From: Rhodobiaceae bacterium
Lineage (GTDB): Bacteria; Pseudomonadota; Alphaproteobacteria; Rhizobiales; JAKPQE01
Assembly (NCBI GenBank): GCA_028278505.1
Contig: JANQEG010000003.1
Location: forward strand, 1 to 60,507
Length of the DNA: 60,507 nucleotides
Direction: 5' to 3'
The notes beneath the pieces are model-generated. The model was given only the letters and a program-made list of their open reading frames with translations, was not told the DNA's origin and ran no database searches. A program made the position numbers and the translations under genes. Position 1 is the first letter of the stretch; each line of letters opens with the position of its first letter. Positions 39,349 through 60,507 of the stretch are shown here, in pieces.

Positions 39349-39445
39349 CCCTCACCGCGCGGTCAGACCAAAGGAATTTGATCCCGACCCGTTGTGACCG
39401 GCAAATTCCCGTCGTCTGCGCGGTCAAGTGCAAATGCCGCTGGCA

Positions 39446-43962: not shown

Positions 43963-44169
43963 GAGTATTATCTATTTGATACGATTCACGATTTGATTTT
44001 CCGAGTAAATCTGAGCGATTGTGCTACATATTTCACGAGGTCCGCTGCACTGATTTTCCGTTCTTGCGGCTAATTGTTTGATTTATATCAACATATAAAT
44101 AGTTATGCCTTGTAAATATTGTTTAATAACGTAAAAACGTGTATTAATTTGATATTTTAATTTGTTGGG

Positions 44170-45021: not shown

Positions 45022-45032
45022 GAAAAAAATCC

Positions 45033-45061
45033 TTGACACCGTAACGCAACTTCGCTAGGGT
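45033..45061 (+). promoter_or_regulatory. Near-consensus promoter upstream of the GTA cluster
   Basis: A perfect TTGACA (45033..45038) is followed after 17 bp by TAGGGT (45056..45061), with an A-run just upstream. It lies 127 bp before the first GTA gene and reads into it. No other convincing promoter was seen between the genes of the cluster. Confidence 0.5.
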
Positions 45062-45187
45062 TCGTCTACCGTCGGACAAATGCGGGCGGGGCCGAGCGCC
45101 ACGAACCGCGGGGCGGACAAAGTTTTCTTAAAAATTCCAAGTGATTAACGCGGTCGGCGACGGGCGCGGGAAAGTGGTGTCGCGATC

Positions 45188-45703: not shown

Positions 45704-46970
45704 CCTTTTCGCCGGCCTGCGCCCGGCCGAGATCGACTTGCTCCTGCACGACTGGGTGCTGTGGGCCCGCGACGACCAGTTACCGCCCGCCGGCGACTGG
45801 ACGACCTGGCTGATCCTTGGCGGCCGCGGCGCCGGCAAGACCCGCGCCGGCGCCGAATGGGTGCGCGGCACGGTCGCCGGCACGCCGCCCTATGGCCGGC
45901 TCGACACCGGCCGCATCGCGCTGATCGGCGAGACCCATGCGGACGCCCGCGAGATCATGGTCGAGGGCCTGTCCGGCCTGCTCGCCGTGCATCCGGCCGC
46001 CGCAAGGCCGCGCTGGGAGGTCTCGCGCCGCCGCCTGCTTTGGGAGAATGGCGCGGTTGCGCAGGTGTTCTCGGCGGAGGACCCGGAGAGCCTGCGCGGG
46101 CCGCAATTCGAGGCCGCATGGGCCGATGAGATCGGAAAATGGCGGTATGCGGAAGCCGCCTGGGACATGCTGCAATTTGCCTTGAGGCTCGGTGACCGGC
46201 CGCGCCAGATCGCCACCACGACGCCGCGGCCGACGCCGCTGATCCGGCGCCTGGTCGACGACAAACAGACGATCGTCACCAGGGTGACGACAAGGTCGAA
46301 CGTCGCCAATCTGGCGCCGGGCTTTCTCGACATCATCGTCGGCCGCTATGCCGGCACGCGGCTGGGCCGCCAGGAACTCGACGGCGAATTGATCGAAGAC
46401 CGCCCGGACGCGCTCTGGCAGCGCGGTGCGATCGAGCAGACAAGGACCGAAGCGCCGCCGGCACTCGGCCGCATCGTCGTCGCCGTCGATCCGCCGGCCT
46501 CGCATCGCCGCGGTGCCGATGCCTGCGGCATCGTCGCTGCCGGCGTCTGCGAAGAGGGCGTCGGCTATGTGCTGAAGGATGCGAGTTTGTCCGGCGCCCG
46601 CCCGGCCGAATGGGCGGCGCGCGCCGTCTCGCTCTATCACCGGATCGGCGCCGATGCGCTGATTGCCGAAGTCAACCAGGGCGGCGACATGGTTGCCGCC
46701 GTCATCCACGAGATCGACGCCACCGTCGCCGTCGTCGCGGTGCGCGCCACCAGGGGCAAATGGCTGCGCGCCGAGCCGGTCGCCGCGCTCTACGAGCAGG
46801 GCCGGGTCCGCCATGTCGGCAGTTTTCCGGAGCTCGAGGACGAGATGTGCGATTTCGGCCCGGACGGCCTTTCCACCGGCCGCAGCCCCGACCGGCTCGA
46901 TGCGCTGGTCTGGGCGCTGACGGCGCTGATGCTGCGCCGCAGCGGCGAGCCGAATGTGCGGTTTTTATAA
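45630..46970 (+). CDS. GTA large terminase (packaging ATPase/nuclease, orfg2)
   Basis: The 446-residue protein has the Walker A LGGRGAGKTRAGAEW, the Walker B AAWADEIGKWRYAEAAW and a C-terminal RNase H-like nuclease with catalytic Asp residues in IVVAVDPPASHR, EVNQGGDM and RSPDRLDALVWAL. It pumps host DNA into the GTA head. The GTG at 45630 follows GAGG and overlaps the small terminase gene; an ATG at 45639 is the alternative. The sequence is a close match to alphaproteobacterial GTA terminases. Confidence 0.93.
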   Translation: MTSMRSARNLRNALIDCAGKEAIDDLFAGLRPAEIDLLLHDWVLWARDDQLPPAGDWTTWLILGGRGAGKTRAGAEWVRGTVAGTPPYGRLDTGRIALIGETHADAREIMVEGLSGLLAVHPAAARPRWEVSRRRLLWENGAVAQVFSAEDPESLRGPQFEAAWADEIGKWRYAEAAWDMLQFALRLGDRPRQIATTTPRPTPLIRRLVDDKQTIVTRVTTRSNVANLAPGFLDIIVGRYAGTRLGRQELDGELIEDRPDALWQRGAIEQTRTEAPPALGRIVVAVDPPASHRRGADACGIVAAGVCEEGVGYVLKDASLSGARPAEWAARAVSLYHRIGADALIAEVNQGGDMVAAVIHEIDATVAVVAVRATRGKWLRAEPVAALYEQGRVRHVGSFPELEDEMCDFGPDGLSTGRSPDRLDALVWALTALMLRRSGEPNVRFL

Positions 46971-46994
46971 GGTTGAATCAGGATCGAGGGCCCG

Positions 46995-48203
46995 ATGATC
47001 GAAAAGATGATGCACTGGATCGTGCCGGCCGGGCTCCGGGCGGCGATCGAGTCCAAGGCGTCGCGTGCCGCAGCGCTCATCGTGTTCGAGCGCAAGGGCC
47101 AGCCGGTATGGACGCCGCGCGACTACGCCGCGCTCGCCCGTGAGGGCTACGCCAAGAACCCGATCGTCTACCGCTCGGTGCGGATGATCGCCGAGGCCGC
47201 CGCCTCGGTGCCGTGGCTGCTCTATCGGGGTGCCGCCGAGATGGACGAGCACCCGCTGCTGGCGCTGCTCGCCCGGCCCAATCCGCGCAGTTCCGGCGGC
47301 AGCTTCATGGAGGAGGTCTACGGCCACCTGCTGACGGCGGGCAACGCCTATCTGGAAGCGGTCGTTGTCGACGATGCGCCCCACGAGCTTTACGCGCTCC
47401 GGCCCGACCGGGTCCGCGTCGTGCCGGGTGCGGAGGGCTGGCCGGAGGCGTTCGACTATACGGTTTCGGGCCGCACGGTGCGGTTCGAACAGAATGCGGG
47501 CAGCGTGCCACCGATCCTCCATCTCGGCCTCTTTCACCCGCTCAACGACCATTACGGCTTTGCGCCGCTGGAGGCGGCGCAGACGAGCCTCGATGTCCAC
47601 AATGCCGCGAGCACTTGGACCAAGAGCCTGCTCGACAATTCCGCCCGGCCGTCGGGCGCGCTCGTTTATTCCGGCCGCGACGGCGCCAATCTGACCGATG
47701 ATCAGTTCGACCGGCTGAAAGCCGAACTCGAAGAGGGCTTTCAGGGCGCGCAGAATGCCGGGCGCCCATTGCTGCTGGAAGGCGGGCTCGATTGGAAGAC
47801 GATGGCGCTCTCGCCGCGCGACATGGATTTCATCGCCGCCAAGAATACCGCCGCGCGCGAAGTCGCGCTCGCTTTCGGCGTGCCGCCCATGCTGCTCGGC
47901 ATCCCCGGCGACAACACCTATTCCAACTACCAGGAGGCCAACCGCGCCTTCTGGCGCCAGACCGTGCTGCCGCTGATCGGCCGCACCGCCAAGGCGATGT
48001 CGGCCTGGCTGGCGCCGGCCTTCGGCGACGATCTGCGGCTCTGGTACGACGTCGACCAGATCGAGGCGCTGTCGGTCGAACGCGAGGCGCTGTGGCGCCG
48101 CGTCGCCGAGGCCCCGTTCCTGACCGCCGACGAGAAGCGGATGGCGGTCGGCTACGAGCCCGTCGCCGACGGCGACGATGTCGCTGCCGACCGGGACGAA
48201 TAA
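46995..48203 (+). CDS. GTA portal protein, HK97 family (orfg3)
   Basis: The 402-residue portal has the family markers YRSVRMIAEAAASVPWLLY near residue 60, NPRSSGGSFMEEVYGHLLTAGNAYLE and the C-terminal IPGDNTYSNYQEANRAFWRQTVLPLIG. Portals form the dodecameric ring through which DNA enters. The gene follows the terminase gene by 24 bp with an own Shine-Dalgarno (GAGGG). Confidence 0.93.
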   Translation: MIEKMMHWIVPAGLRAAIESKASRAAALIVFERKGQPVWTPRDYAALAREGYAKNPIVYRSVRMIAEAAASVPWLLYRGAAEMDEHPLLALLARPNPRSSGGSFMEEVYGHLLTAGNAYLEAVVVDDAPHELYALRPDRVRVVPGAEGWPEAFDYTVSGRTVRFEQNAGSVPPILHLGLFHPLNDHYGFAPLEAAQTSLDVHNAASTWTKSLLDNSARPSGALVYSGRDGANLTDDQFDRLKAELEEGFQGAQNAGRPLLLEGGLDWKTMALSPRDMDFIAAKNTAAREVALAFGVPPMLLGIPGDNTYSNYQEANRAFWRQTVLPLIGRTAKAMSAWLAPAFGDDLRLWYDVDQIEALSVEREALWRRVAEAPFLTADEKRMAVGYEPVADGDDVAADRDE

Positions 48204-48287
48204 CACCGGCATTCGAGAAATTACCGGCCCTTCATCGGGCGATTGCCGCGATTTGCCGCGGCCGTCGTCAAGTCACGGGATACCGCA

Positions 48288-48986
48288 ATGCGCGACTATG
48301 ACCTCGTTCTCGACCGCGAAGTGAAATTTGCGCCCGCCGACCTGACCGAAGTGGAAGCCGACGGAACGTTCACCGGCTATGCCAGCCTCTTTGGCGTCGC
48401 CGATCTCGGCCACGACGTGGTCCTGCCGGGGGCGTTTCGCGCCAGCCTGGAGCGCCGCGGCGCCGCCGGCGTAAAAATGCTCTATCAGCACGACCCGGCC
48501 GATCCGATCGGCGTCTGGCTCGACATCGCCGAGGACGGCAAGGGCTTGCGCGTCACCGGCCGGCTGATGACCGAGGTTGCCCGCGGCCGCGAGGTGCTGG
48601 CGCTGATGCGCGCCGGCGTGCTCGACGGGCTGTCGATCGGCTTTCGCACCGTAAGGGGCCGCCACGACACCAAGAGCGGCACCCGCCGGCTCCTCGAGGT
48701 CGATCTCTGGGAGATCTCGGTGGTCACCTTTCCGATGCTGCCCGGCGCCCGTGTCGCCGCCGTCAAGACCGACGACGGCGAGCGGCGGCTGCCGACGGCA
48801 CGCGAATTCGAACGCTGGCTCACGCGGGACGCTGGGCTGACGCGGACCGAAGCCCGGACGGTCATCCAGTCCGGGTTCAAAACGCTTCTCGGCACGCGGG
48901 ACGCTGCTGACGATGGCGATCAATTCGTCGCGGCCGCCATTCGCCAGGCCGCACGGCGTATCCGAACCATGAGGTATCAGCAATGA
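48288..48986 (+). CDS. GTA prohead protease, HK97 family (orfg4)
   Basis: The 232-residue serine protease has TFTGYASLFGVADLGHDVVLPGAF, the histidine in MLYQHDPADPIG, and the serine in VLDGLSIGFRT; the order H then S matches herpes-type assemblins. It cleaves the capsid N-terminus during maturation. The ATG at 48288 gives the family start RDYDLVLDREVKF. Its stop overlaps the capsid start by four bases (ATGA). Confidence 0.92.
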   Translation: MRDYDLVLDREVKFAPADLTEVEADGTFTGYASLFGVADLGHDVVLPGAFRASLERRGAAGVKMLYQHDPADPIGVWLDIAEDGKGLRVTGRLMTEVARGREVLALMRAGVLDGLSIGFRTVRGRHDTKSGTRRLLEVDLWEISVVTFPMLPGARVAAVKTDDGERRLPTAREFERWLTRDAGLTRTEARTVIQSGFKTLLGTRDAADDGDQFVAAAIRQAARRIRTMRYQQ

Positions 48987-50251
48987 CCCCTGCAACACAC
49001 GCTCCGGCACCGGAGCAGAAGGCGGCACAGAAGGTGCCGACCAGCACCGAAGTCGTCGAGGCGTTCGACGAATTCATGCGCTCCTTCGAGGCCTTCAAGG
49101 CCGCCAATGATGAACGCATCGCCGAGATCGAATCCCGTGTCGGCGGCACCGACGTCATGACCGAGGAGAAGATGGTCCGCATCAACCGGGCCCTCGACGA
49201 CCAGAAGCGCCGGCTCGACGATCTCCTCGTCCGCCACAAGCGGCCGGGCCTCGGCGGCAGCCGCGCCGGCTTCGGCATCAGCGAGCACAAGAGCGCGTTC
49301 GATGCCTATATCCGCCGCGGCGCCGAGGACGGCATGCGCCGGTTCGAGCAGAAGGCGCTGTCGATCGGCTCCGATCCCGACGGCGGCTATCTGGTGCCCG
49401 AGGAGACGGAGACGGAAATCGGCCGCCGGCTGGCGCAGATTTCGCCGATCCGGGCGATCTCCGGCATCCGCCAGGTCAGTTCCTCGGTCTATAAGAAGCC
49501 GTTCTCGACCACCGGCCCCGCGGTCGGCTGGGTCGGCGAGACCGACGCGCGCCCGCAGACGGCGACGCCGACGATCGCCGAACTGCAGTTCCCGGCGATG
49601 GAGCTCTACGCCATGCCGGCGGCGACCGCCTCGCTGCTCGACGACTCCGCCGTCAACATCGACGAATGGATCGCCGACGAGGTCCAGGTCGCCTTCGCCG
49701 AGCAGGAGGGTGCTGCCTTCGTCACCGGCGACGGCGCCAACAAGCCGACCGGCTTCCTCAACTACACCGCCATCGCCGAGTCGAGCTGGAGCTGGGGCAA
49801 TCTCGGCTATGTCGCCACCGGCAGCGACGGCGCCTTCCCGGCGTCCGACGCCTCCGACGTGCTCGTCGACATGATCTATGCGCTGAAAGCCGGCTACCGG
49901 CAGAACGCGCACTGGGTCATGAACCGGCGCACCCAGGCGGAGATCCGCAAGCTGAAGGACGCCGACGGCAACTATCTGTGGCAGCCGCCCGCGACCGCGG
50001 GCGCCGCCGCGACGCTGATGAACTTCCCGCTGGTCGAGGCCGAGGACATGCCCGACATCGGCTCCGACAGCCTGTCGGTCGCCTTCGGTGATTTCGGCCG
50101 CGGCTATCTCGTCGTCGACCGCGTCGGGGTGCGCGTGCTGCGCGATCCCTACAGCGCCAAACCCTACGTGCTGTTCTACACGACCAAGCGCGTCGGCGGC
50201 GGCGTCCAGGATTTCGACGCGATCAAGCTGCTGAAATTCGGCGTCTCGTAA
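48983..50251 (+). CDS. GTA major capsid protein, HK97 fold (orfg5)
   Basis: The 422-residue precursor has an N-terminal delta domain of about 110 residues with coiled-coil pattern (VVEAFDEFMRSFEAFKAANDERIAEIE), expected to be removed by the protease, then the HK97 fold. Markers are SIGSDPDGGYLVPEETETEI, AVGWVGETDARPQT, FLNYTAI and the P-domain FGDFGRGYLVVDRVGVRVLRD. An intrinsic terminator follows 24 bp after the stop, which may set its high expression apart from the downstream genes. Confidence 0.95.
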   Translation: MTPATHAPAPEQKAAQKVPTSTEVVEAFDEFMRSFEAFKAANDERIAEIESRVGGTDVMTEEKMVRINRALDDQKRRLDDLLVRHKRPGLGGSRAGFGISEHKSAFDAYIRRGAEDGMRRFEQKALSIGSDPDGGYLVPEETETEIGRRLAQISPIRAISGIRQVSSSVYKKPFSTTGPAVGWVGETDARPQTATPTIAELQFPAMELYAMPAATASLLDDSAVNIDEWIADEVQVAFAEQEGAAFVTGDGANKPTGFLNYTAIAESSWSWGNLGYVATGSDGAFPASDASDVLVDMIYALKAGYRQNAHWVMNRRTQAEIRKLKDADGNYLWQPPATAGAAATLMNFPLVEAEDMPDIGSDSLSVAFGDFGRGYLVVDRVGVRVLRDPYSAKPYVLFYTTKRVGGGVQDFDAIKLLKFGVS

Positions 50252-50274
50252 TCCTCCGAGGCCTCCCCGCCTGG

Positions 50275-50313
50275 CGGTCCCGCCTTCCCCGGAAGCGCGG
50301 GACCGTCCTTTTT
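50275..50313 (+). terminator. Intrinsic terminator between the capsid gene and the connector gene
   Basis: A perfect 9-bp stem CGGTCCCGC (50275..50283) / GCGGGACCG (50297..50305) with a 13-nt loop is followed directly by TCCTTTTT (50306..50313). This is a textbook rho-independent terminator. It sits inside the cluster, 24 bp after the capsid stop and 36 bp before the connector gene, so it must be leaky or regulated if the rest of the cluster depends on the upstream promoter. Confidence 0.75.
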
Positions 50314-50348
50314 CGGACCCTTCCGAAGCCCACAAGGAATTCAGTCAA

Positions 50349-50924
50349 ATGAGCGCCGTCCTCGTCACCCCGCCAGCGGTCGAACCGGTCTCGCTCGCCG
50401 ACGCCAAGCACCATTTGCGCATCGAGCACGGCGATGACGACGAGCTGATCGGCGATCTTATCGCCGCGGCGCGCCTCCACATCGAGGCCGAGACCCGCCG
50501 CGCCCTGATCACCCAGACCTGGCGCCGCTTTCTCGACCGCCGTCCGGACGGCGGACGGCTGGTCCTGCGCCCCTCGCCGGTGCAGTCGATCGCCTCGGTC
50601 GCCGTCTACGATGCCGACGACACGATGCAGATCGTCGATCCCGGCGCCTATCTGGTCGACACCGCATCGGTGCCGGCGCGGTTCGTCTTCAAGACCGGCA
50701 TGCCGCTCGGCGCGACCCGCGAATTGAACGGCATCGAGATCGAATTCGTCGCCGGCTACGGCGACACCGCAGACGACGTGCCGATGCCGCTGCGCCAGGC
50801 GATCCTGCGCCTGATCAACCATTGGTACGAGCACCGCGAGGCGGTCAGCCTGTCCGGCACCGGCGGCTATGTGCCGGTCGGCCTGGAGGCGCTGATCGCC
50901 GGCTTCCGGGTCCCGCTTCTGTGA
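50349..50924 (+). CDS. GTA head-tail connector protein (orfg6)
   Basis: The 191-residue protein is of the phiE125 gp8/HK97 gp6 connector type: VEPVSLADAKHHLRIEHGDDDELIGDLIAAARLHIEAETRRALITQTW at the N-terminus (markers LADAKHHLRI and AETRRAL), then a beta domain and IEFVAGYGDTADDVPMPLRQAILRL. Such proteins form the ring beneath the portal. It follows the terminator with its own AAGGA. Confidence 0.9.
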   Translation: MSAVLVTPPAVEPVSLADAKHHLRIEHGDDDELIGDLIAAARLHIEAETRRALITQTWRRFLDRRPDGGRLVLRPSPVQSIASVAVYDADDTMQIVDPGAYLVDTASVPARFVFKTGMPLGATRELNGIEIEFVAGYGDTADDVPMPLRQAILRLINHWYEHREAVSLSGTGGYVPVGLEALIAGFRVPLL

Positions 50925-50928
50925 GGCG

Positions 50929-51267
50929 ATGATGAAAAGGCCCGCAACCACGCCCGGCCGGCTGCGCCATCGCCTCGTGCTGGAGACACCGCAAGCGACG
51001 CCCGACGGCGGCGGCGGCGAGATCGTGACCTGGACCGTTGTTACGACGCTCTGGGCCGACATCGCCCCGGTGTCGGCGGCGGAGCGCCAGGCCGCCGGCC
51101 ATCTGGAAGCCGCGGTCAGCCACACTATCCGCATCCGCCACCGAACCGATGTCGGCGGCAATCAGCGGTTCAGTTACGGCGCGCGGATATTCCGCATCCG
51201 CGCCGTGCTCGATCCGGACGAAACCAGGCGGTTCCTCACCTGCTTCGTCGAGGAGACGGCGGAATGA
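50929..51267 (+). CDS. GTA head closure protein (orfg7, SPP1 gp16-like)
   Basis: The 112-residue protein has the head-closure pattern GRLRHRLVLETPQATPDGGGGEI, WTVVTTLWADIAPVSAAER and RIRHRTDVGGNQRFSYGARIFRIRAV. It would close the connector and join head to tail. It starts 4 bp after the connector stop and overlaps the next small gene (ATGA at 51264). Confidence 0.87.
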   Translation: MMKRPATTPGRLRHRLVLETPQATPDGGGGEIVTWTVVTTLWADIAPVSAAERQAAGHLEAAVSHTIRIRHRTDVGGNQRFSYGARIFRIRAVLDPDETRRFLTCFVEETAE

Positions 51268-51596
51268 AGTTCTCCGGACGGTTCATCGATCCGCAGCCGC
51301 TGATCGACCGGCTCTACCGGCGCGTGACCGAAACCATCGCGCCCGACCTTGTGGCGGCGGAGGCGGAGCGGATCCGCGCCGCCATTCTGGACGCCGCCGA
51401 CAGCGGCGGCGAGATCGATCTGGCGATCCTCGACGATGTCCGGGTCGAAACCGCCGATGGCGGCCGCTCGCGAACCGTCACGCTGCCCGCCGAGGCGCTG
51501 TTTGAACGCGAATTCGGGACGCTTGAACGGCCGCCGCGGCCGCTGCTCCGCGATGTGCTCAATGACAGCGACCGGCCGTCGCGCCTCAGGCGCTGA
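51264..51596 (+). CDS. HK97-gp10-like neck protein candidate
   Basis: The 110-residue protein overlaps the head-closure stop by four bases. Its C-terminal part reads FEREFGTLERPPRPLLRDVLN, which resembles the EFGT...RPFLRPA end of HK97 gp10 family neck proteins. The position, between head closure and tail terminator, is where gp10 lies in siphophages. I recall no gene between g7 and g8 in the R. capsulatus GTA, so this may be a lineage-specific member. The assignment is moderate. Confidence 0.65.
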   Translation: MKFSGRFIDPQPLIDRLYRRVTETIAPDLVAAEAERIRAAILDAADSGGEIDLAILDDVRVETADGGRSRTVTLPAEALFEREFGTLERPPRPLLRDVLNDSDRPSRLRR

Positions 51597-51623
51597 TTTG
51601 GAACGAAAGTCCGGGAAACCGTC

Positions 51624-52034
51624 ATGACCTATTCCGCCTGGGCGTTGCAGAAGGGGGCTTACGAGCGGCTCGCCGCCGATACCGGGCTCACCACCCTTTT
51701 GGGCGGCCCGCGCATCTATGACGACGTGCCGCGCAAGGCGCCGTTTCCCTATCTGACCCTCGGCCCGGTCTCGACCGCCGACTGGTCGACGGGCACCGAG
51801 GCCGGCGGCGTGCACGACCTGGTCGTCCATATCTGGTCGCGCAGCGACGGCAAGCGCGAGACGCTGGCGATCATCGAAGCGGTCGGTGATGCCCTGCATG
51901 AGGCCGCGCTTACCCTCGACGGCCATCATCTGGTCAATCTGCGCTTCGAATTCGCCGATGCGCGCCGCGATCCCGACGGCTTCACCTATCACGGCGTCGT
52001 GCGCTTCCGCGCGGTGACCGAACCGAGCGCCTAA
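51624..52034 (+). CDS. GTA tail terminator, DUF3168 (orfg8)
   Basis: The 136-residue protein begins SAWALQKGAYERLAADTGLTTLLGG and continues with IYDDVPRKAPFPYLTLGPVSTADWST, the DUF3168 signature. Tail terminator proteins cap the tail tube and join it to the neck. It has the normal length and sits between the gp10-like gene and the major tail protein gene. Confidence 0.9.
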   Translation: MTYSAWALQKGAYERLAADTGLTTLLGGPRIYDDVPRKAPFPYLTLGPVSTADWSTGTEAGGVHDLVVHIWSRSDGKRETLAIIEAVGDALHEAALTLDGHHLVNLRFEFADARRDPDGFTYHGVVRFRAVTEPSA

Positions 52035-52067
52035 CCGCCGGCCGGCCGGCAAATCAAGGAGAGTTTC

Positions 52068-52481
52068 ATGGTCGCGCAAAAGGGCAAGGACCTGCTGCTG
52101 AAGATCGACAGCGACGGCGGCGGCACATACCAGACGGTGGCCGGCCTCCGGGCCCGGTCGATCGCCTTCAACGCCGAGCCGGTCGACGTCACCGACACCG
52201 AATCCGTCGGCCGCTGGCGCGAGCTTCTGGAAGGCGCCGGCGTCCGCCGCGCCGGGCTCGCCGGCTCCGGCATCTTCAAGGATGGCGCCAGCGACGAGAC
52301 GGTCCGCCAGGTCTTCTTCGACGGGCTGATCCGCAACTGGCAGGTGGTTATCCCCGATTTCGGCACCATCACCGCGCCGTTCCAGATTGTGCGGCTCGAA
52401 TATGGCGGCGACCACAATCGCGAGGTCACCTTCGATCTGGCGATGGAATCGGCCGGCGCCGTGACCTTTGCGGCGGCCTGA
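52068..52481 (+). CDS. GTA major tail protein (orfg9, TP901-1 family)
   Basis: The 137-residue tube subunit begins MVAQKGKDLLLKIDSDGGG and has GLRARSIAFNAEPVDVTDTES and FQIVRLEYGGDHNREVTFDLAMES, typical of the GTA/TP901-1 major tail protein. An excellent Shine-Dalgarno (AAGGAGAG) precedes the ATG, consistent with high expression. Confidence 0.92.
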   Translation: MVAQKGKDLLLKIDSDGGGTYQTVAGLRARSIAFNAEPVDVTDTESVGRWRELLEGAGVRRAGLAGSGIFKDGASDETVRQVFFDGLIRNWQVVIPDFGTITAPFQIVRLEYGGDHNREVTFDLAMESAGAVTFAAA

Positions 52482-52493
52482 GGCGCGCGGGCG

Positions 52494-52838
52494 ATGGCCA
52501 ATCGACATCGCGGCGAGATCGAGGCCCTGCTCGACGGCAAGCCGTATACGCTGTGCCTCACGCTGGGCGCGCTTGCCGAACTGGAGCAGGCCTTCGGCGC
52601 CGGCGATCTGGTGGCGCTGGCCGAGCGCTTCGAGCGCGGCCGGCTTTCGGCCCGCGACGCGACCCGCATTCTGGGCGCGGGCTTGCGCGGCGCCGGCAAC
52701 GACATCGGCGACGACGCGGTCGCGGCGATGAAGGTCGATGGCGGCGCGGCCGGCGTCGCCGGGATCATCGTCGCGCTGCTTAAGGCAACCTTCGGCGACG
52801 GCGCGCCGGACGGGGAGGGGTCCGCAAACCCTCGCTAG
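52494..52838 (+). CDS. GTA tail assembly chaperone, zero-frame product (orfg10)
   Basis: The 114-residue protein begins MANRHRGEIEALLDGKPYTLCLTLGALAELE and continues with a helical region (ALAERFERGRLSARDATRILG), the layout of GTA family tail chaperones. Such proteins bind the tape measure protein during tail assembly. Its last codons contain an X_XXY_YYZ heptamer (52826..52832) just before the TAG at 52836, leading into a -1 frame chaperone domain. If frameshifting occurs, a fraction of ribosomes would make a 186-residue fusion. Confidence 0.88.
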   Translation: MANRHRGEIEALLDGKPYTLCLTLGALAELEQAFGAGDLVALAERFERGRLSARDATRILGAGLRGAGNDIGDDAVAAMKVDGGAAGVAGIIVALLKATFGDGAPDGEGSANPR

Positions 52839-52862
52839 CCGCGTCGCCGACGGCGCCGCGGC
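52812..52862 (+). promoter_or_regulatory. Putative programmed -1 ribosomal frameshift signal
   Basis: Three parts occur in the right order. A Shine-Dalgarno-like run GGGGAGGGG (52812..52820) is followed by the heptamer A_AAC_CCT (52826..52832), aligned with the zero frame as X_XXY_YYZ. After a 5-nt spacer comes a hairpin: stem GCCGCG/CGCGGC (52838..52843, 52857..52862), one mismatch, inner stem CGCC/GGCG with loop GAC. The zero-frame stop TAG (52836..52838) overlaps the first stem base. The -1 frame is open to 53053. Confidence 0.65.
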
Positions 52863-53053
52863 CGGCCTTTCCCTGGGACGACGTCATGGCCTTCGGCCTC
52901 GGCCGGCTGGCGCTGCCGCCGTCCGTGTTCTGGACGATGACCCCGCGCGAGATCGCGGCCGCCGTCGCCGGTGTATTCGGCCGCGCGCCGCTGCCGCCGG
53001 AGCGGGCCGATCTGGCCGCGCTGATGGCGCGGTTTCCCGACAATAGACCTTGA
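52832..53053 (+). CDS. GTA tail assembly chaperone, -1 frame extension (orfg10.1 domain)
   Basis: This -1 frame encodes SLAASPTAPRPAFPWDDVM, then AFGLGRLALPPSVFWTMTPREI and ends LMARFPDNRP. The FPWDDVM...FWTMTPRE core is the Phage_TAC_6-type tail chaperone found after orfg10 in GTAs. From the upstream stop at 52781 to the core there is no ATG, GTG or TTG; the first ATG (52886) would remove the conserved FPWDD. It is therefore most simply made as a frameshift fusion to orfg10, like lambda G-T. A rare start codon is the alternative. Confidence 0.75.
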   Translation, partial: SLAASPTAPRPAFPWDDVMAFGLGRLALPPSVFWTMTPREIAAAVAGVFGRAPLPPERADLAALMARFPDNRP

Positions 53054-53062
53054 GGCTAAGCC

Positions 53063-53644
53063 ATGGCGATCATCGAGCAGGCGACGATCGAGGTGAATGC
53101 CGACACCTCCGACGTCAAGGAAAAGCTCACCGAGATGGAATCGCTCGGCAAGAAGTTCGGCACCGCTTTGTCCGGGGCCCTTCAAGGCGCGATCACCGGC
53201 GGCAAGTCGCTGACCGACGTGCTCCGGGGCATCGGCCTGCAGTTTGCCAATCTGACACTCAAGTCGGCGCTCAATCCGATCGAGAACATGCTGTCGAAGG
53301 GCTTCGGCGATCTGTTCAAATCGGTTCTGCCGTTTGCTGCGGGCGGGGTCGTCGGCACCGAAAGCGTGGCGCCGTTTGCCGCCGGCGGCGTCGTCACCGA
53401 ACCGAGCTTCTTTCGCATGCCCGGCGGCCGTCTCGGCCTGATGGGCGAGGCCGGCGCCGAGGCGATCCTGCCGCTCTCGCGCGGCCCCGACGGCCGGCTC
53501 GGCGTGCGCGCCGAGGGCGGCGGCGCGCCGACCCATGTCACGGTCAATATCCAGACCCAGGACCTCAAGTCCTTCCGCCGCTCCGAGGCGCAGGTCTCCG
53601 CGGCTCTTGCCCGCGCCGTCGGCCGCGGCCGGCGCGGCTTGTGA
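53063..53644 (+). CDS. GTA tape measure protein, short (orfg11)
   Basis: The 193-residue protein begins AIIEQATIEVNADTSDVKEKLTEMESLGKKFG and has a central hydrophobic segment (LKSALNPIENMLSKGFGDLFKS). The tape-measure tail motif FFRMPGGRLGLMGEAGAEAILPLSRG is present. PFAAGGVV occurs twice (near residues 91 and 103). The length is tiny compared with phage tape measures but normal for GTAs, whose tails are short. It starts 9 bp after the chaperone extension ends. Confidence 0.9.
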   Translation: MAIIEQATIEVNADTSDVKEKLTEMESLGKKFGTALSGALQGAITGGKSLTDVLRGIGLQFANLTLKSALNPIENMLSKGFGDLFKSVLPFAAGGVVGTESVAPFAAGGVVTEPSFFRMPGGRLGLMGEAGAEAILPLSRGPDGRLGVRAEGGGAPTHVTVNIQTQDLKSFRRSEAQVSAALARAVGRGRRGL

Positions 53645-53673
53645 ACTCCAGTTAGACCCAGGAACCGCAGCCC

Positions 53674-54318
53674 ATGTCGAACCCGGCGTCCTTTCACGAA
53701 GTCCGGTTTCCGATCGACATTGCGCTCGGCGCAAGCGGCGGGCCGGAGCGGCGCACCGAGATCGTCCTGCTCGCCTCCGGTCATGAAGAGCGCAATGCGC
53801 GCTGGGCCGATTCGCGCAGGCGTTACAATGCCGGCTACGGCGTCAAATCGGTGCGCGATTTGCACGAGGTGATCGCCTTCTTCGAGGAGCGCCGCGGCCG
53901 CCTCTACGGCTTCCGCTGGAGGGACCGGCTCGACGACCGCTCGTGCGCGCCGGGCGACACGCCGGGACCGCTCGATCAGGAGATCGGCACCGGCGACGAC
54001 ACCACCGTCGCCTTCCAGCTCCGCCGCCGTTATGGCGACGCTTACGCGCCCTGGGACCGGTCGATCGCAAAGCCGGTCGCCGGCACCGTCCGGGTCGCCG
54101 TCGCCGGCACCGAAAAGGTCGAAGGCACCGATTTCACCTGCGATCCGGCGACCGGCATCGTCACCTTTTCGGCGGCACCGGCCGCAGGCGCGGTGATCAC
54201 CGCCGGCTTCGAGTTCGACGTGCCCGTGCGTTTCGACGCCGACACGCTGGAAATCAACCTCGCCGCCTTCGAGGCCGGCGACATCCCCGCCATTCCGCTG
54301 ATCGAGATCAGAGTATGA
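53674..54318 (+). CDS. GTA distal tail protein, DUF2460 (orfg12)
   Basis: The 214-residue protein has FHEVRFPIDIALGASGGPERRTEIV, RWADSRRRYNAGYGVKS and the receptor region FEERRGRLYGFRWRDRLD, then a beta domain ending in DIPAIPLIEIRV. These are DUF2460 signatures. It forms the distal tail ring at the baseplate. Its stop overlaps the hub gene start (ATGA). Confidence 0.93.
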   Translation: MSNPASFHEVRFPIDIALGASGGPERRTEIVLLASGHEERNARWADSRRRYNAGYGVKSVRDLHEVIAFFEERRGRLYGFRWRDRLDDRSCAPGDTPGPLDQEIGTGDDTTVAFQLRRRYGDAYAPWDRSIAKPVAGTVRVAVAGTEKVEGTDFTCDPATGIVTFSAAPAAGAVITAGFEFDVPVRFDADTLEINLAAFEAGDIPAIPLIEIRV

Positions 54319-55202
54319 AGGTTCTGTCGCAGGATTTGCGCGATCATCTCACTTCCGGCGCCACCACGTTGTGCCGGTGCTGGAAGGTGATCCGCACCGA
54401 TGGCGTCGTGCTCGGCTTCACCGATCACGACCGCAGCCTTAGTTTCGACGGCGTCGACTACGAGGCCGCATCCGGGTTTACCGCGAGCGAAGCGGTCAGC
54501 GAGCTGGGGCTTTCGGTCGGCGGCCTTGAGGTCGACGGCGCGCTTTCCTCCGACCGGTTGCTTGAGGCCGACATCGCCGGCGGCGCCTATGACAATGCCC
54601 GGGTCGAAGTCTGGCTGGTGAACTGGACCGACACCGACGAAAGGCTGCTTCTGCGGATCGGCAATATCGGCGAGGTCGAACGCGCCGACAACGCATTCCG
54701 CGCCGAGATCCGCGGCCTCGCTCACGCTCTCGACCAGGAGCAGGGGCGTATCTTCCAATATGAGTGCGATGCCGATTTCGCCGATGCGCGCTGCGGCATA
54801 GACGGCGGGCAGCCGGCCTATTCCGGCAGCGGCACCGTGCTTTCCGCCGACAGTGCCCGGCTTTTCGATGCGGAAAACCTCGCCGGCTATGCCGACGGCT
54901 GGTTCACCCGCGGCCGCCTGACCTGGACCGGCGGCGCCAATGCCGGCCGCGTGATCGAGGTGAAGGACCATACGCTTATCGATACCACCGCGTCGTTCAC
55001 CCTGTGGCAGCCGATGGGCGCCGACATCGCCGCCGGAGACACGTTCACGGTGGTTGCGGGCTGCGACAAGCAATTCGGAACCTGCAGCGCGAAATTTTCC
55101 AATGTCCTCAATTTCCGCGGCTTCCCGCACATGCCGGGCAATGACTACACGGTGCACTACGCCAAGCGCGGCGGCAACAATGACGGCGGGAGCATCGCGT
55201 GA
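54315..55202 (+). CDS. GTA hub protein, DUF2163/BR0599 type (orfg13)
   Basis: The 295-residue protein has DLRDHLTSGATTLCRCWKV, GFTDHDRSLSFDGVDYEAASGF and the C-terminal domain with GCDKQFGTCSAKFSNVLNFRGFPHMPG. The cysteines in YECDADFADARCGID and CDKQFGTC are conserved; the R. capsulatus hub was reported to hold an Fe-S cluster, so these may be its ligands (inference). Start and stop overlap neighbours by four and one bases. Confidence 0.93.
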   Translation: MKVLSQDLRDHLTSGATTLCRCWKVIRTDGVVLGFTDHDRSLSFDGVDYEAASGFTASEAVSELGLSVGGLEVDGALSSDRLLEADIAGGAYDNARVEVWLVNWTDTDERLLLRIGNIGEVERADNAFRAEIRGLAHALDQEQGRIFQYECDADFADARCGIDGGQPAYSGSGTVLSADSARLFDAENLAGYADGWFTRGRLTWTGGANAGRVIEVKDHTLIDTTASFTLWQPMGADIAAGDTFTVVAGCDKQFGTCSAKFSNVLNFRGFPHMPGNDYTVHYAKRGGNNDGGSIA

Positions 55203-55633
55203 TGCCGCGCCGCGACCAGATCATCGCCGAGACCCATAGCTGGATCGGCACGCCCTATCGCCACCAGGCGTCGCTGAAAGGGGTCGGTTGCGACTGCCTC
55301 GGCCTGATCCGCGGCGTCTGGCGCAGCGTCTATGGCGACGAGCCGGAGCAGATACCGGGCTATTCGCCGGACTGGGCCGAGGCGGGCGGTCAAGAGACGC
55401 TGGCGTCCGCCGCCCGCCGCCATCTCGACGAGATCGATCCGTTGGCGGTGCAGCCGGCCGATATTCTCCTGTTTCGCTGGCGCGCGCTGATGCCGGCCAA
55501 GCACGCGGCGATCCTTATAGCGTCCGACCGCTTCGTTCACGCCCATGACGGTGCCGCGGTCGCAACCGCAGCACTTTCGCCCTGGTGGCGCCGCCGCCTG
55601 GCCTATGCCTTCCGCTTTCCCGGGATCGACTGA
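55202..55633 (+). CDS. GTA NlpC/P60 family peptidase (orfg14)
   Basis: The 143-residue protein has THSWIGTPYRHQASLKGVGCDCLGLIRGVW, where the second cysteine is the catalytic one of the NlpC/P60 fold, and a histidine in AKHAAILIASDRFVHAHDG. It probably cuts peptidoglycan cross-links when the GTA enters a recipient cell. The ATG at 55202 overlaps the hub stop (TGATG), and the stop overlaps the next start in the same way. Confidence 0.92.
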   Translation: MPRRDQIIAETHSWIGTPYRHQASLKGVGCDCLGLIRGVWRSVYGDEPEQIPGYSPDWAEAGGQETLASAARRHLDEIDPLAVQPADILLFRWRALMPAKHAAILIASDRFVHAHDGAAVATAALSPWWRRRLAYAFRFPGID

Positions 55634-58600
55634 TGGCGACGCTGGTTCTCTCTCTGGCCGGGCAGGCGATCGGCGCGGCGCTCGGATCGCCGCTGCTCGG
55701 CACGATCGGACGTGCCGCCGGCGCCATCGTCGGCTACGGCCTCGACCAGGCGCTCTTCGGCAAGGGGTCGTCGACGGTGCGCGAGGGGCCGCGCCTCTCC
55801 GATCTCGAGGTCCAGGCCTCCTCGGAGGGCGCGCCCATTCCCCGGGTCTACGGCCGCGCCCGCATTGGCGGGCAGATCATCTGGGCCACCCGTTTCGAGG
55901 AGGTCACCGAGACGACGACGACCACGTCGGGCGGCAAGGGCGGTGGCGGCAGCCGCAGGACGCAGACCGAGATCACCTATTCCTACTATGCCAACATGGC
56001 GATCGGCCTCTGCGAAGGCCCGATCGCCAGGGTCGGCCGCATCTGGGCCGACGGCGATCAGCTCGATCTGACCGACGTCACTTATCGGGTCTACACCGGG
56101 ACCGAGAGCCAATCGCCCGACAGCCTGATCGAAGCGAAACAGGGCGCGGGCGTTCCCGCCTATCGCGGCCTCGCCTATGTGGTGTTCGAACGCCTGCCGC
56201 TGGCCGAGTTCGGCAACCGGGTGCCGCAGCTGAATTTTGAGGTCACCTCCATTCTGCCGGGCCTGGAGACACGGCTGAACGGCATCAATTTGATCCCGGG
56301 CGCGAGCGAGTTCGGCTACGATCCCCAGGCGCTGATCCGCACCGTTTCGGCCGGCTCCTCGGTTTCGGAAAACGCCCATTCCGGATCGGGCGCCTCGGAC
56401 TGGACGACGGCGCTCGACGACCTTCAGGCGGTCTGCCCGAACCTGCAGCAGCTGGCGATCGTCGTCACCTGGTTCGGCACCGATCTCCGCGTCGGCCAGT
56501 GTCAGCTCCGCCCGGCCGTGGAGAACCGGGAAAAGGTGGTCGACGGCGCCGAATGGCGGGTCGGCGACGTCGTGCGGTCGACCGCGGAACTGGTCAGCAC
56601 CTATCTCGACCGTCCGGCTTTCGGCGGCACGCCGTCCGATGCCGCGGTGATCGCCGCGATCCAGAACCTCAAGGCCCGCGGCCTCAAGGTGGTGCTCAAT
56701 CCCTTCGTGATGATGGACATCCCGGCCGGCAATACGCTGCCCGATCCGTGGAGCGGGCTCGGCGAACAGCCGCCCTATCCCTGGCGCGGCACGATCACCT
56801 GCGATCCGGCGCCCGGCCGGCCCGGCAGCCCCGACCAGACCGGCGCCGTCATCGCCCAACTCGATGCGTTCATCGGCGCCGCCGCTGTCGGCGATTTCAC
56901 CGTCAACGGCACCACGGTTTCCTATTCCGGCCCGGCCGAATGGTCGCTGCGCCGCATGGTCCTGCACTACGCCCATCTGAGCGTCGCCGCCGGCGGCGTC
57001 GACACTTTCCTGCTCGGCTCCGAACTGGTTGCCCTGACCCAACTGCGCTCGGCGCCGGACACCTATCCGTTCGTCGCCGCGCTCAGCCAGTTGGCCGACG
57101 ATGTGCGGTCCGTCGTCGGCTCCAGCACCGAGATATCCTACGGCGCCGACTGGTCGGAATATTTCGGCCACCAGCCCCAGGACGGCAGCGGCGACGTCTA
57201 CTTCCACCTCGATTCCCTGTGGGCCAACGCGAATATCGACTTCATCGGCATCGACAATTACATGCCGCTCGCCGACTGGCGCGACGGCGACGCCCATCTC
57301 GATGCCGAGATCGCCGATTCGGCCTACGACAATGACTACCTGCAGGGCAACATCGCCGGCGGCGAGGGCTTCGACTGGTATTATGCGAGCGACGCCGACC
57401 GCACCGCGCAGCTGCGCACGCCGATCACCGACACCACCTACGGCAAGCCCTGGGTGTTCCGCTACAAGGATCTGGTCAACTGGTGGTCGAACCAGCACTT
57501 CAATCGTCCGCTCGGCGTCGAGGCGGCGCAGCCGACCGCCTGGGTGCCGCAGTCGAAACCGATCAAGTTCACCGAGACCGGCTGTCCGGCCGTCGACAAG
57601 GGCGCCAACCAGTCGAACGTCTTTCCCGATCCGAAATCCTCGTCCTCGTCCTATCCCTATTTCTCCAACCGCAGCCGCGACGACGAGGCGCAGCGCGCCT
57701 TCCTGAACGCGGTCGTCAGCTATTGGGACCCGGACGATCCCGACTACGATCCGGCGCGCAACCCGGTGTCGTCGGTCTATGGCGACACGATGGTCGATGC
57801 CGCCTCGATCTTCGCCTGGACCTGGGACGCGCGGCCCTATCCGGCATTCCCGGCACTGCGCGAGGTCTGGTCCGACGGCGGCAACTGGACCACCGGCCAC
57901 TGGCTCAACGGTCGTCTCGGAACCGCGCCGCTCGCCGCGCTGATCGCCGCCATCTGCGAGCGCCAGGGATTTGCCGACTATGACGTCACCGGCGTCTATG
58001 GGGTGCTCGACGGCTATGTCATCGACCGGCCGATGTCGGCTCGCGAGGCCATTGACCCGCTGATCGAGGCCGGTCTCGTCGAGGCGCTTGACGCCGGAAC
58101 GGTGGTTCGCTTCTTTAGCCGCGGCCGCCGCCCCGAACTGGCGCTGACGGTCGATGATCTGGTCGACAGCGAAGACCGGCCGCTGGTCACCGTCACCAGG
58201 GCGCAGGAGACGGAACTGCCGCTGCAATTGACGCTCGGCTTCACCGGCGATCCGGTCGATTTCCGGCGTTCGGCCGTCTCCTCGCGCCGGCTTGCCGGGT
58301 CGAGCCGCCGTGAAGCGCGTATCGAACTCGCCGCGATGATGGAACACGGCACGGCGAAGCGCACGGTCGAGAGCCGGCTGCACGATCTCTGGGTCGGCCG
58401 CGAGCGGATTTCCTTTTCGCTGGCGCCGAGCGAAATCGCGATCGAGCCGGGCGATGTGCTGCGCCTTGAGCGCAACGGCGTCGACCGCGCGATGGAGATC
58501 GTCCGCATCGACGAGGCCGGACAATTGTCGATCGAGGCGCGCGCGGTCGAGCGCTCGATCGGCGCGCCGGTCGCCGAAGCCGGGCGCGAGCGCGAGATGA

Positions 58601-59556
58601 GCCGCCCGGTCGTCTACGGCAAGCCCAGCGTCCATATTCTCGACCTGCCGATCCTCAATGGCGGCGTCACCTCGCCGGGCGCCCGCATCGCCGCCTTCGC
58701 CGATCCCTGGCCGGGGCGCATGGCCGTCTACCGTTCGCCGAGCGAGCAGAGCTTCACGCTGCTGCAGATGATCGACCAGCCGGCGACGATCGGAACCCTT
58801 GCGACGCCGCTTGCGGCCGGCCGTCTCGGCCTCTGGGACCGCGTCAACCAGTTCGAAGTGGAGCTCCAGGGCGGCGCGCTCGCCGGCCAGTCCGAGCTGC
58901 TGGTCCAGGCGGGGGCCAATATCGCGGCGGTCGGATCGGCCGCGGGCGGCTGGGAAATCCTCCAGTTCCGCGACGCCACGCTGATCGCCGAAAACACCTA
59001 CCGTCTGTCCTGGCTGCTGCGCGGCCAGGCGGGCACCGAGGACGTCATGCATGCGGGGCATTCGACGGGTGCGGATTTCGTGCTGATCGACGCCGCCGCC
59101 GTCGAGATGCCGCTGCGCGCCGACGAGATCGGGCGGCTGCTCTATTACCGGATCGGTCCTGCGGTGCGCACGATTGCCGACCCGTCGTTCCGCGCACTGA
59201 CACAGACGCTTGCCGGCCGCGCCGGGCTGCCGTTCAGCCCGTCCCATCTGAAGGCCGTCAAGGACTATGGCAGCGGCGATATCGCGCTCGCCTGGACGCG
59301 GCGGACGCGCATCGGCGGCGACGCCTGGCTCGGCGAGGTGCCGCTCGGCGAGGACGCCGAGGCCTACGACGTGCTGATCTATGACGGCGAAACCGTCAAG
59401 CGGACACTCAACGTCGATGGCCCCCAGGCGATCTATGCGGCCGACGATCAGTCCGCCGATTTCGGCGCGCCGCTGTCGACGGTGGATTTTGCCGTGCACC
59501 AGCTCTCGGCGACCCATGGCCGCGGCGTTCCACGCCGGGCGGCGATCGAACTCTGA
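55633..59556 (+). CDS. GTA large tail-tip protein (orfg15, megatron)
   Basis: The 1307-residue protein has an N-terminal hydrophobic start (LVLSLAGQAIGAALGSPLLG), a region with TTTTSGGKGGGGSRRTQTEITYSYYANMAIGLCEGPI, and a TIM-barrel-like domain (about 430-770; FRYKDLVNWWSNQHFNRP and TAWVPQSKPIKFTETGCPAVDKG) typical of GTA orfg15. Tail-hub domains and a C-terminal fibronectin-like stretch (DIALAWTRRTRIGGDAWLG) follow. It forms the tip that reaches the recipient membrane. The frame is intact over its full length. Confidence 0.94.
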   Translation: MATLVLSLAGQAIGAALGSPLLGTIGRAAGAIVGYGLDQALFGKGSSTVREGPRLSDLEVQASSEGAPIPRVYGRARIGGQIIWATRFEEVTETTTTTSGGKGGGGSRRTQTEITYSYYANMAIGLCEGPIARVGRIWADGDQLDLTDVTYRVYTGTESQSPDSLIEAKQGAGVPAYRGLAYVVFERLPLAEFGNRVPQLNFEVTSILPGLETRLNGINLIPGASEFGYDPQALIRTVSAGSSVSENAHSGSGASDWTTALDDLQAVCPNLQQLAIVVTWFGTDLRVGQCQLRPAVENREKVVDGAEWRVGDVVRSTAELVSTYLDRPAFGGTPSDAAVIAAIQNLKARGLKVVLNPFVMMDIPAGNTLPDPWSGLGEQPPYPWRGTITCDPAPGRPGSPDQTGAVIAQLDAFIGAAAVGDFTVNGTTVSYSGPAEWSLRRMVLHYAHLSVAAGGVDTFLLGSELVALTQLRSAPDTYPFVAALSQLADDVRSVVGSSTEISYGADWSEYFGHQPQDGSGDVYFHLDSLWANANIDFIGIDNYMPLADWRDGDAHLDAEIADSAYDNDYLQGNIAGGEGFDWYYASDADRTAQLRTPITDTTYGKPWVFRYKDLVNWWSNQHFNRPLGVEAAQPTAWVPQSKPIKFTETGCPAVDKGANQSNVFPDPKSSSSSYPYFSNRSRDDEAQRAFLNAVVSYWDPDDPDYDPARNPVSSVYGDTMVDAASIFAWTWDARPYPAFPALREVWSDGGNWTTGHWLNGRLGTAPLAALIAAICERQGFADYDVTGVYGVLDGYVIDRPMSAREAIDPLIEAGLVEALDAGTVVRFFSRGRRPELALTVDDLVDSEDRPLVTVTRAQETELPLQLTLGFTGDPVDFRRSAVSSRRLAGSSRREARIELAAMMEHGTAKRTVESRLHDLWVGRERISFSLAPSEIAIEPGDVLRLERNGVDRAMEIVRIDEAGQLSIEARAVERSIGAPVAEAGREREMSRPVVYGKPSVHILDLPILNGGVTSPGARIAAFADPWPGRMAVYRSPSEQSFTLLQMIDQPATIGTLATPLAAGRLGLWDRVNQFEVELQGGALAGQSELLVQAGANIAAVGSAAGGWEILQFRDATLIAENTYRLSWLLRGQAGTEDVMHAGHSTGADFVLIDAAAVEMPLRADEIGRLLYYRIGPAVRTIADPSFRALTQTLAGRAGLPFSPSHLKAVKDYGSGDIALAWTRRTRIGGDAWLGEVPLGEDAEAYDVLIYDGETVKRTLNVDGPQAIYAADDQSADFGAPLSTVDFAVHQLSATHGRGVPRRAAIEL

Positions 59557-59581
59557 CTTAACCGACCGACGGAGCCGGCTC

Positions 59582-60507
59582 ATGTCCGAAACCGAAACGA
59601 CGAAGCTCGGCCTGCCTCTGATTCAGGCGGCCGAGGCGCAGAAGCACGTCACCCATAACGAGGCCATCGATGCGCTCGACACGCTGGTCCATCTGGCCGT
59701 GCTCGACCGCGATCTGACAACGCCGCCGGGCACGCCGGGCGACGGCGACACCTATATTCCGGCGGCCGGCGCCGGCGGCGACTGGAGCGGCCGCGACAAT
59801 GACGTCGTCGCCTGGCAGGGCGGAATCTGGCGTCACTACCCGCCGCAGATCGGCTGGCGCGCCTTCATCGTCGATGAGGCGCAGGTCCTGGTCTGGGATG
59901 GTGCGGCCTGGACCAGCATCGCTGAATTCACGATGCCGAGCGAGCTTCAGAATCTCTCCCTCCTCGGCGTCGGAACGACGGCGGACGCGACCAACCCGTT
60001 TTCCGCCAAGCTCAACAATCTTCTGGTTTCGGCGAAATACACCGGCGAGGGCGGCGACGGCGACCTCCGCTACAAGCTCAACAAGGAGAGCGCGGCGGAT
60101 ACGTTGTCGCTGCTGATGCAGGACAACTGGTCCGGCCGCGCCGAACTCGGGCTTATCGGCAATGACGACTTCACCATCAAGACATCGGCCGATGGAACAA
60201 GCTGGAACAACGCCATCGAAGTCGACGCCAACGGCTACGTCAAACTGCCGCAACGTCCGCTCTTCATGGGCCAGCGCACCGGTTCCACCCAGACAGCGTC
60301 CGGGGCTTTCGTTGTCGACAATGTTTGGCTGGACACCGCATCTGCCTACAACACCTCGAATGGCCGCTTCACCTGTCCCGTTTCGGGCTATTATGAAGTG
60401 CACGCGCGCATATTGTTGAGTAACGGCCCTGTAAATGCCTGGGCGGATATGGCGGTTTGGAAGAACGGCGTTCTGCAGGGCCAACAATTCGCCTACAGCG
60501 TGCTTTA
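59582..60507 (+). CDS. DUF2793 fibre-like protein with C1q-like end, partial at right edge
   Basis: The frame starts at ATG 59582 and runs off the window after 308 codons. Residues ~8-110 are a DUF2793 domain (KLGLPLIQAAEAQKHVTHNEAIDALDTLV in shortened form: LPLIQAAEAQKHVTHNEA). A beta-rich part follows, then a segment like a C1q/TNF-type trimeric head: TSNGRFTCPVSGYYEVHARI and MAVWKNGVLQG. It follows orfg15 by 25 bp, so it is probably the receptor-binding fibre of this GTA. The end is not visible. Confidence 0.8.
   Translation, partial: MSETETTKLGLPLIQAAEAQKHVTHNEAIDALDTLVHLAVLDRDLTTPPGTPGDGDTYIPAAGAGGDWSGRDNDVVAWQGGIWRHYPPQIGWRAFIVDEAQVLVWDGAAWTSIAEFTMPSELQNLSLLGVGTTADATNPFSAKLNNLLVSAKYTGEGGDGDLRYKLNKESAADTLSLLMQDNWSGRAELGLIGNDDFTIKTSADGTSWNNAIEVDANGYVKLPQRPLFMGQRTGSTQTASGAFVVDNVWLDTASAYNTSNGRFTCPVSGYYEVHARILLSNGPVNAWADMAVWKNGVLQGQQFAYSVL

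Follow-up and report, generated by a model that had tools for sequence, protein, structure and literature searches.

How is the second tail assembly chaperone of a gene transfer agent (GTA) made when its reading frame has no start codon? This question is raised by a gene junction in the window, the 60,507-nt stretch of DNA analysed here (Rhodobiaceae bacterium, assembly GCA_028278505.1, contig JANQEG010000003.1, positions 1..60,507, forward strand). A GTA is a domesticated phage that carries host DNA from cell to cell. In phage lambda, the tail chaperone genes G and GT are arranged in order with a -1 overlap. Xu, Hendrix and Duda reportedly described, in 2004, the G/GT tail assembly chaperone frameshift in lambda and its siphophage relatives. 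From the sequences compared below, the g10/g10.1 pair of the window is very probably a -1 programmed ribosomal frameshift cassette of this siphophage kind inside a GTA.

The gene cluster and its two chaperone genes

The window holds an RcGTA-type cluster, known here from its genes, with everything from terminase to megatron present. Profile searches identified the terminase, HK97-type portal, protease, capsid, connectors, tail tube, chaperones and tape measure, and, in the distal part, a distal tail protein (Rcc01695 family), the hub, an NlpC/P60 peptidase and the megatron. Two chaperone-like ORFs sit between the major tail protein gene and the tape measure gene (in the order PF06199, PF11836, PF09550, RcGTA_tape). 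The relevant features are:

45597..59556, + strand: RcGTA-type head-tail cluster, profile matches from terminase to megatron (GTA_megatron, E 0; TIGR02217; GTA_TIM)
52068..52481, + strand: g9, major tail (tube) protein, immediately 5' of g10 (PF06199, E 2.1e-44; TIGR02126)
52494..52838, + strand: g10, tail assembly chaperone 1 (G-like), 114 aa (PF11836, Phage_TAC_11, 'GTA-gp10', E 8.6e-32)
52832..53053, + strand: the part of g10.1 that would be read after a -1 slip, 73 residues, stop TGA 53051-53053 (PF09550, Phage_TAC_6; TIGR02216)
53063..53644, + strand: g11, tape measure, presumed chaperone client (NF058675, RcGTA_tape, E 2.3e-51)

The g10.1 part begins with the linker SLAASPTAPRPA, and the TAC_6 domain follows, with the profile start at the F encoded at 52868 (PF09550, E 1.1e-17; NCBIfam TIGR02216, 'rcc01693 family', E 6.2e-17). 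The g11 match scores 174.7 bits, under the model cut-off of 220, and g11 has no Pfam family match. At the other end of the cluster, an ORF of 171 aa (45188-45703) lies ahead of the large terminase, which we take to be the position of GTA g1, the small terminase. An ORF of 283 aa (44170-45021) adjoins the cluster on its 5' side; its start, CIYCGRKSGKLSDEHVIP, looks HNH-type nuclease-like by eye.

The junction in the window

The second chaperone domain lies in the -1 frame relative to g10, and this frame is open from 52784 to 53053. The initial annotation had claimed that no ATG, GTG or TTG precedes the FPWDD core in this frame, and the sequence confirms it: from 52784 to the TAC_6 core there is no ATG, GTG, TTG or CTG, and the first ATG of the frame, at 52886, is the M of FPWDDVM. 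The zero frame of g10 ends ...GGG TCC GCA AAC CCT CGC TAG, with the stop at 52836-52838 by ORF reading. Around this stop, the three elements described in the initial annotation are found at the following positions:

52812..52820, + strand: GGGGAGGGG, candidate stimulator complementary to the anti-Shine-Dalgarno (anti-SD) sequence, with a 5-nt gap to the heptamer
52826..52832, + strand: slippery heptamer A_AAC_CCT in X_XXY_YYZ register (zero-frame codons GCA, AAC, CCT), 3 nt ahead of the stop
52838..52862, + strand: candidate stem of 10 bp with one 1x1 mismatch, -18.3 kcal/mol, beginning 5 nt 3' of the heptamer

The duplex of GGGGAGGGG with the 8-nt anti-SD is strong, at -10.6 kcal/mol. The stem is present as described, but it is not stronger than local composition would give (50-nt window, z -0.65). 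The 113 residues before the slip and the 73 after it add up to the 186-residue fusion that had been proposed beside the 114-residue product, and both the coordinates and the arithmetic hold.

We infer the occurrence of the slip and its rate from these elements, and the role of the fusion by analogy with lambda. Most ribosomes would end at TAG 52836 and release the 114-residue chaperone. A fraction would pause at A_AAC_CCT, aided by the SD-like element and perhaps by the stem, and the Asn and Pro tRNAs would re-pair one base back (AAC to AAA, CCT to CCC). Reading would then continue in the -1 frame to give the 186-residue fusion with the TAC_6 domain, predicted to read ...SANPSLAASPTAPR across the junction. 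As in lambda, the fusion may link tape measure and tail tube protein and determine the ratio of the chaperones. The YYY of the window heptamer is CCC, which is off the classical consensus of A or U at YYY and counts against a slip; in annotated phage sites, the authors of PRFect found every position occupied by each of the four bases (PMC10885494 for both).

Within the window, in-register XXXYYYZ sequences are infrequent, with three in the 4215 codons of the 13 other GTA ORFs. These three (T_TTG_GGC, A_AAG_GGC and T_TTC_CCG) are none of the kinds common in relatives, and comparison with the relatives suggests that chance does not account for the heptamer at the junction.

Heptamers and start codons in the first set of relatives

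The alignment with relatives proposed in the initial annotation was carried out on two sets. The first set combined the best 80 of 149 loci in IMG/VR, the best 80 of 140 in named genome contigs, a single family relative and 29 of the 45 matching class-sample genomes (the top 30 without the window), which gives close relatives a large weight. A complete head-tail cluster was established for the window only. The 191 loci, including the window, comprised 6 without the pair and 185 g10+TAC_6 pairs, the second domain being in the -1 frame in 177 of them. Dropping exact duplicates left 156 junctions. A start was scored when ATG, GTG or TTG occurred in the -1 frame anywhere from 60 nt before the g10 stop up to the core; CTG was left out of the definition.

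No start codon precedes the core in 75 of the 156 junctions, and 69 of these 75 carry an in-register XXXYYYZ in the overlap, compared with 6/35 junctions with an ATG start and 18/46 with GTG or TTG. Counted by register, XXXYYYZ sequences numbered 107:4:4 in start-less junctions, 21:4:0 with GTG or TTG and 6:2:1 with ATG. In a codon-shuffle null on 63 start-less representatives (85% identity), the mean was 13.7 and the maximum in 500 shuffles was 25; 59 of the 63 were observed with a heptamer (58 by the counting rule used for 69/75). As a background, the last 90 nt of the gene 5' of g10 held an in-register heptamer in 1/144 and 1/100 loci.

Start-less heptamers of the first set were C_CCT_TTC (33), T_TTC_CCT (30, nearly all overlapping C_CCT_TTC), A_AAC_CCT (15), G_GGA_AAC (7), G_GGA_AAG (6), C_CCT_TTG (6) and others. 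Across relatives, the same place is thus filled by different heptamers (C_CCT_TTC, A_AAC_CCT, G_GGA_AAG/C, C_CCT_TTG), and slip sites would appear to differ between lineages, with a start-stop overlap in many relatives instead. One same-family relative (L165) and one same-order relative (L182) have GCA AAC CCT CGC and then the stop, as in the window.

The window belongs to the junctions with a TAA or TAG stop and the core downstream, where no NTG is possible at the overlap. All 15 start-less junctions of this class have an in-register heptamer, and none has one off register. A CTG at the overlap with a downstream core occurs in 16 of the 75 start-less junctions, and 12 of these 16 have a heptamer.

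The initial annotation had named, as evidence against a frameshift, relatives with an ordinary start and no heptamer. Many relatives are of this kind: an ATGA start-stop overlap is found in 30 of the 156 junctions, with no in-register heptamer in 26 and one in 4. Because the heptamer and the ATG start are largely mutually exclusive, we take these to be alternative states of a single gene pair and not a refutation.

Junctions with an overlapping core and junctions without a heptamer

Of the start-less junctions in the first set, 43 have an FPW core that starts ahead of the g10 stop, so that the -1 frame already encodes it while g10 is still open. C_CCT_TTC here coincides with the codons of PFPW, so protein conservation accounts for part of these heptamers. 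When only heptamers ending before the F were counted, they occurred in register in 9/43 loci and in the other registers in 4 and 4. The proline before F is encoded by CCC in 35/35 junctions with an overlapping core, compared with 2/13 with ATG (Fisher p 3.5e-9). CCC is also frequent at this position elsewhere (7/15 with GTG or TTG; 13/17 start-less with a downstream core). This codon bias would count against the protein being the whole explanation. Six loci without C_CCT_TTC hold another heptamer upstream, which is G_GGA_AAA or G_GGA_AAC in L017, L025, L088 and L103, and A_AAC_CCT in L112 and L117; L181 and, in the order sample described below, L225, L226 and L228 have neither C_CCT_TTC nor another heptamer. 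The argument for a frameshift rests on the downstream-core class since this is free of the PFPW codon confound.

A heptamer is absent from 6/75 start-less junctions of the first set (L020, L138, L157, L160, L168, L181) and from 9/59 of the order sample (L221, L225, L226, L228, L245, L285, L301, L306, L320). Several of these exceptions have CTG at the overlap, and the AAC CCT of relatives corresponds to CGC CCT in L168, from the window's order, and in L306. The exceptions may use CTG or another slip motif, or they may be decayed. L138 (Phyllobacterium sp. 628) keeps GCA AAC CCT before the g10 stop and has TGA in place of the W of the FPW core; its broken -1 frame is perhaps that of a decaying GTA or a sequence error.

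The order sample and the phase of the junction

For the order sample, 199 genomes were drawn evenly from the window's order, and g10 was found in 125. Six were set aside (five already in the first set and one truncated match, G393); the same profile models as before were applied to the other 119. The -1 phase was found at 106 junctions, with a heptamer in 50/59 start-less junctions, 7/27 with ATG and 5/20 with GTG or TTG. The registers of the start-less junctions were 72:4:6. With a TAA or TAG stop and a downstream core, 22/24 had the heptamer. Removal of near-copies (identity >90%, within the sample or with the first set) left 97 junctions, and among these 46/54 start-less junctions had a heptamer vs 1/18 with an ATGA overlap (Fisher p 1.2e-9). 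A_AAC_CCT in register recurs in L205, L231, L234, L244 and L250, and 10 instances of G_GGA_AAG were counted at start-less junctions in this sample.

Among the 22 loci outside the -1 phase, 20 carry an NTG in frame. The other two (L016, L191) look misparsed by eye, as does L196. Doubtful parses aside, start-less junctions are found in the -1 phase alone, which is what a -1 shift would demand.

The upstream SD-like element and the candidate downstream stem

For junctions that carry one of the commoner heptamers, complementarity to the anti-SD was followed as a function of distance. With a downstream core and no start, it peaks 8-12 nt before the heptamer, with means of -5.0 kcal/mol at 11 nt (n=20) and -5.2 kcal/mol at 10 nt (n=27). 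With an overlapping core, the peak is broad (-6.6 kcal/mol at 14 nt, n=38; -6.0 kcal/mol at 20 nt, n=20). At ATGA and GTGA junctions without a heptamer, complementarity is instead strongest 4-5 nt before the start codon, where the means are -4.9 and -5.3 kcal/mol for GTGA (n=13, 7) and weaker, -3.4 and -2.9 kcal/mol, for ATGA (n=22, 18). These differing peaks suggest that the spacing of the element tends to go with the state. A candidate upstream SD-like stimulator is thus present both in the window and, as peaks over background, in its class. Taken over the two sets, heptamers occur where the start is absent and are rare with ATGA, and the SD-like spacing fits, so that this test by alignment comes out in favor of a -1 frameshift.

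The stem did not stand out in the same way. In 50-nt folds compared with dinucleotide shuffles, start-less junctions with a downstream core had a median z of -0.60 vs -0.56 for the control stretch. Those with an overlapping core had -0.15 vs +0.83 (p 0.0011), a difference that comes mostly from the control. In 32-nt sliding windows compared with dimer shuffles, the lowest mean z for the downstream-core class lay at +3 (-0.91) and +6 nt (-0.78). The effect compared with distant windows was not significant for either class (Wilcoxon p 0.11 for the downstream core, p 0.39 for the overlapping core). Clear hairpins 5-6 nt after the heptamer are found in L093, L310 and L312. We do not claim that the stem is conserved; it is clear in some relatives and not significant as a class.

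Alternative explanations

Together, the absence of a start, the association with an in-register heptamer and the SD-like spacing in two sets of relatives underlie the -1 frameshift reading. Another possible explanation is termination and reinitiation, in which ribosomes would stop at TAG 52836 and restart, by coupling and without a fusion, on a codon outside the canonical set (CTA, ACG) or on the ATG at 52886, inside the domain. Many relatives seem to do this through an ATGA or GTGA overlap, with an SD-like sequence strongest just before the start. A short product is also conceivable at C_CCT_TTC-type junctions, since their g10 stop falls inside the codons for V-M in the core, in many cases as GTGATG. 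The overlap codon of the window, however, is CTA, and ATG 52886 lies 47 nt past the stop and would lose both F and W, the latter present in 241/262 junctions. Coupling also predicts neither in-register heptamers, yet these fill 15/15 and 22/24 of the junctions with a TAA or TAG stop and a downstream core, nor an SD-like sequence spaced for the heptamer. Reinitiation is thus an unlikely account of the window.

Even less likely is that the window copy is decayed or misassembled, an indel or substitution having removed the start so that g10.1 is no longer made. The window comes from one genome assembly of 150 contigs that is 84.9% complete, and decay is seen in relatives, as in the stop inside the core of L138. 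Against this, the start-less -1 arrangement with a heptamer recurs in 69/156 (window included) and 50/106 junctions, including that of the same-family L165. The 13 other GTA ORFs scanned are also open, each with a family match (that of the tape measure under the cut-off). Transcriptional slippage as the source of the fusion is the least probable of the three, and hardly credible here, since it would give the same -1 product but generally needs longer runs than the AAA and CCC of the window heptamer, and the SD-like element would act on ribosomes.

Comparison with known frameshift systems

The window and lambda G/GT, compared by arrangement and family names, are alike in gene order, in the -1 overlap and in a slippery heptamer near the zero-frame stop. 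They differ in that the pair described here is GTA-encoded, has A_AAC_CCT and belongs to PF11836/PF09550. In E. coli dnaX, an upstream SD-like element, a heptamer and a downstream stem occur together, as do the SD-like element, the heptamer and the candidate stem in the window; the shift in dnaX leads to an early stop, whereas in the window it would lead to a new domain. An excerpt of PMC5009743 gives a molar ratio of 30:1 for the two lambda products and A_AAA_AAG as the slip site of dnaX. It also describes G_GGA_AAG, which occurs at start-less junctions of the order sample too, as highly shift-prone in E. coli.

The same two genes, g10 and g10.1 (g10.5), are named tail chaperones 1 and 2 in the RcGTA of Rhodobacter capsulatus (PMC11409702, in part). 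In the partial texts of PMC11409702 and PMC7296036 on RcGTA, the word frameshift does not occur. A frameshift has been proposed for the GTA-like element of Wolbachia (PMC10299305, in part), which is also a putative GTA, but that shift is +1 and affects a hydrolase gene rather than the tail chaperones. RcZahn, unlike most of the R. capsulatus phages described, is reported to show no clear evidence of a tail-chaperone frameshift (PMC8601537, in part). No report of a -1 frameshift in GTA tail chaperones was found in the open-access literature searched, including portions of PMC3711429, PMC8601537, PMC11409702, PMC10299305, PMC9022992, PMC3610622, PMC7296036, PMC5009743, PMC9765227 and PMC10885494. 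This agrees with the initial annotation, which knew of no such switch in a GTA; most subscription journals lie outside this scope, and a report elsewhere is possible.

Two proposed states of one gene pair

A tree of 118 rows and 162 columns was used to follow the two states. Only 15 of its 115 inner branches are starred as supported. The minimum number of changes is at least 22 for heptamer presence and 26 for start or no start; support is weak, and the direction of change is not readable. The start-less state with a heptamer requires 25 changes, compared with a shuffled mean of 39.7, and the starred branches force 3. An independent-pairs test found 4 pairs at starred branches (p 1), too few supported branches for a verdict. 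On this weakly supported tree, the start-less state with a heptamer seems to be clustered and yet to switch often.

R. capsulatus belongs to the Rhodobacterales. It lies outside the compared loci, but Paracoccus denitrificans (L201), of the same order, has an ATGA overlap and no heptamer, and this state may explain why work on RcGTA missed a frameshift. On balance, we favor the broader view that RcGTA-type GTAs of the Alphaproteobacteria commonly keep a working G/GT frameshift. The pair would have switched many times between fusion by a -1 slip and two proteins made by an ATGA or GTGA overlap, with repeated replacement of the slip sequence, and the common -1 phase would permit the exchange by point changes. 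The frameshift would have gone unnoticed because the well-studied GTAs, those of the Rhodobacterales type, have the start-codon arrangement.

For many GTAs of the Alphaproteobacteria, this predicts a fusion protein in tail assembly that annotation based on start codons would miss. If true, this would be the first such switch in a GTA within the open-access literature searched, and evidence of recoding kept under selection in host-domesticated phage machinery. Related tails apparently built with and without the fusion would form a natural experiment in which the need for the G/GT fusion becomes testable.

Other observations

Two short, weak DNA matches to the g10 region occur in the same genome as the window and are possibly due to chance (G000:C102:7093-7169, L002, 74% over 77 bases; G000:C32:5539-5571, L003, 88% over 33 bases). 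Among the relatives, L288, L305 and L307 have AT-rich junctions, as judged by eye, with TAC_6 separate and in the same frame as g10, after the g10 stop. Linkers of >100 nt separate the g10 stop from the TAC_6 core in L046, L092, L129, L135, L212, L252 and L292. Some of these translate to strings resembling dispersed repeats, such as HSRESGNPE in L135, which would fit an insertion of repeats at the junction. Finally, two entries filed as 'Bacteriophage sp.', L199 (MW462191) and L200 (MW091529), contain a GTA-like pair in which TGA follows A_AAC_CCT without a gap. As annotated, the second gene begins further downstream and no joined feature is given; these entries may be GTA clusters deposited as phages.
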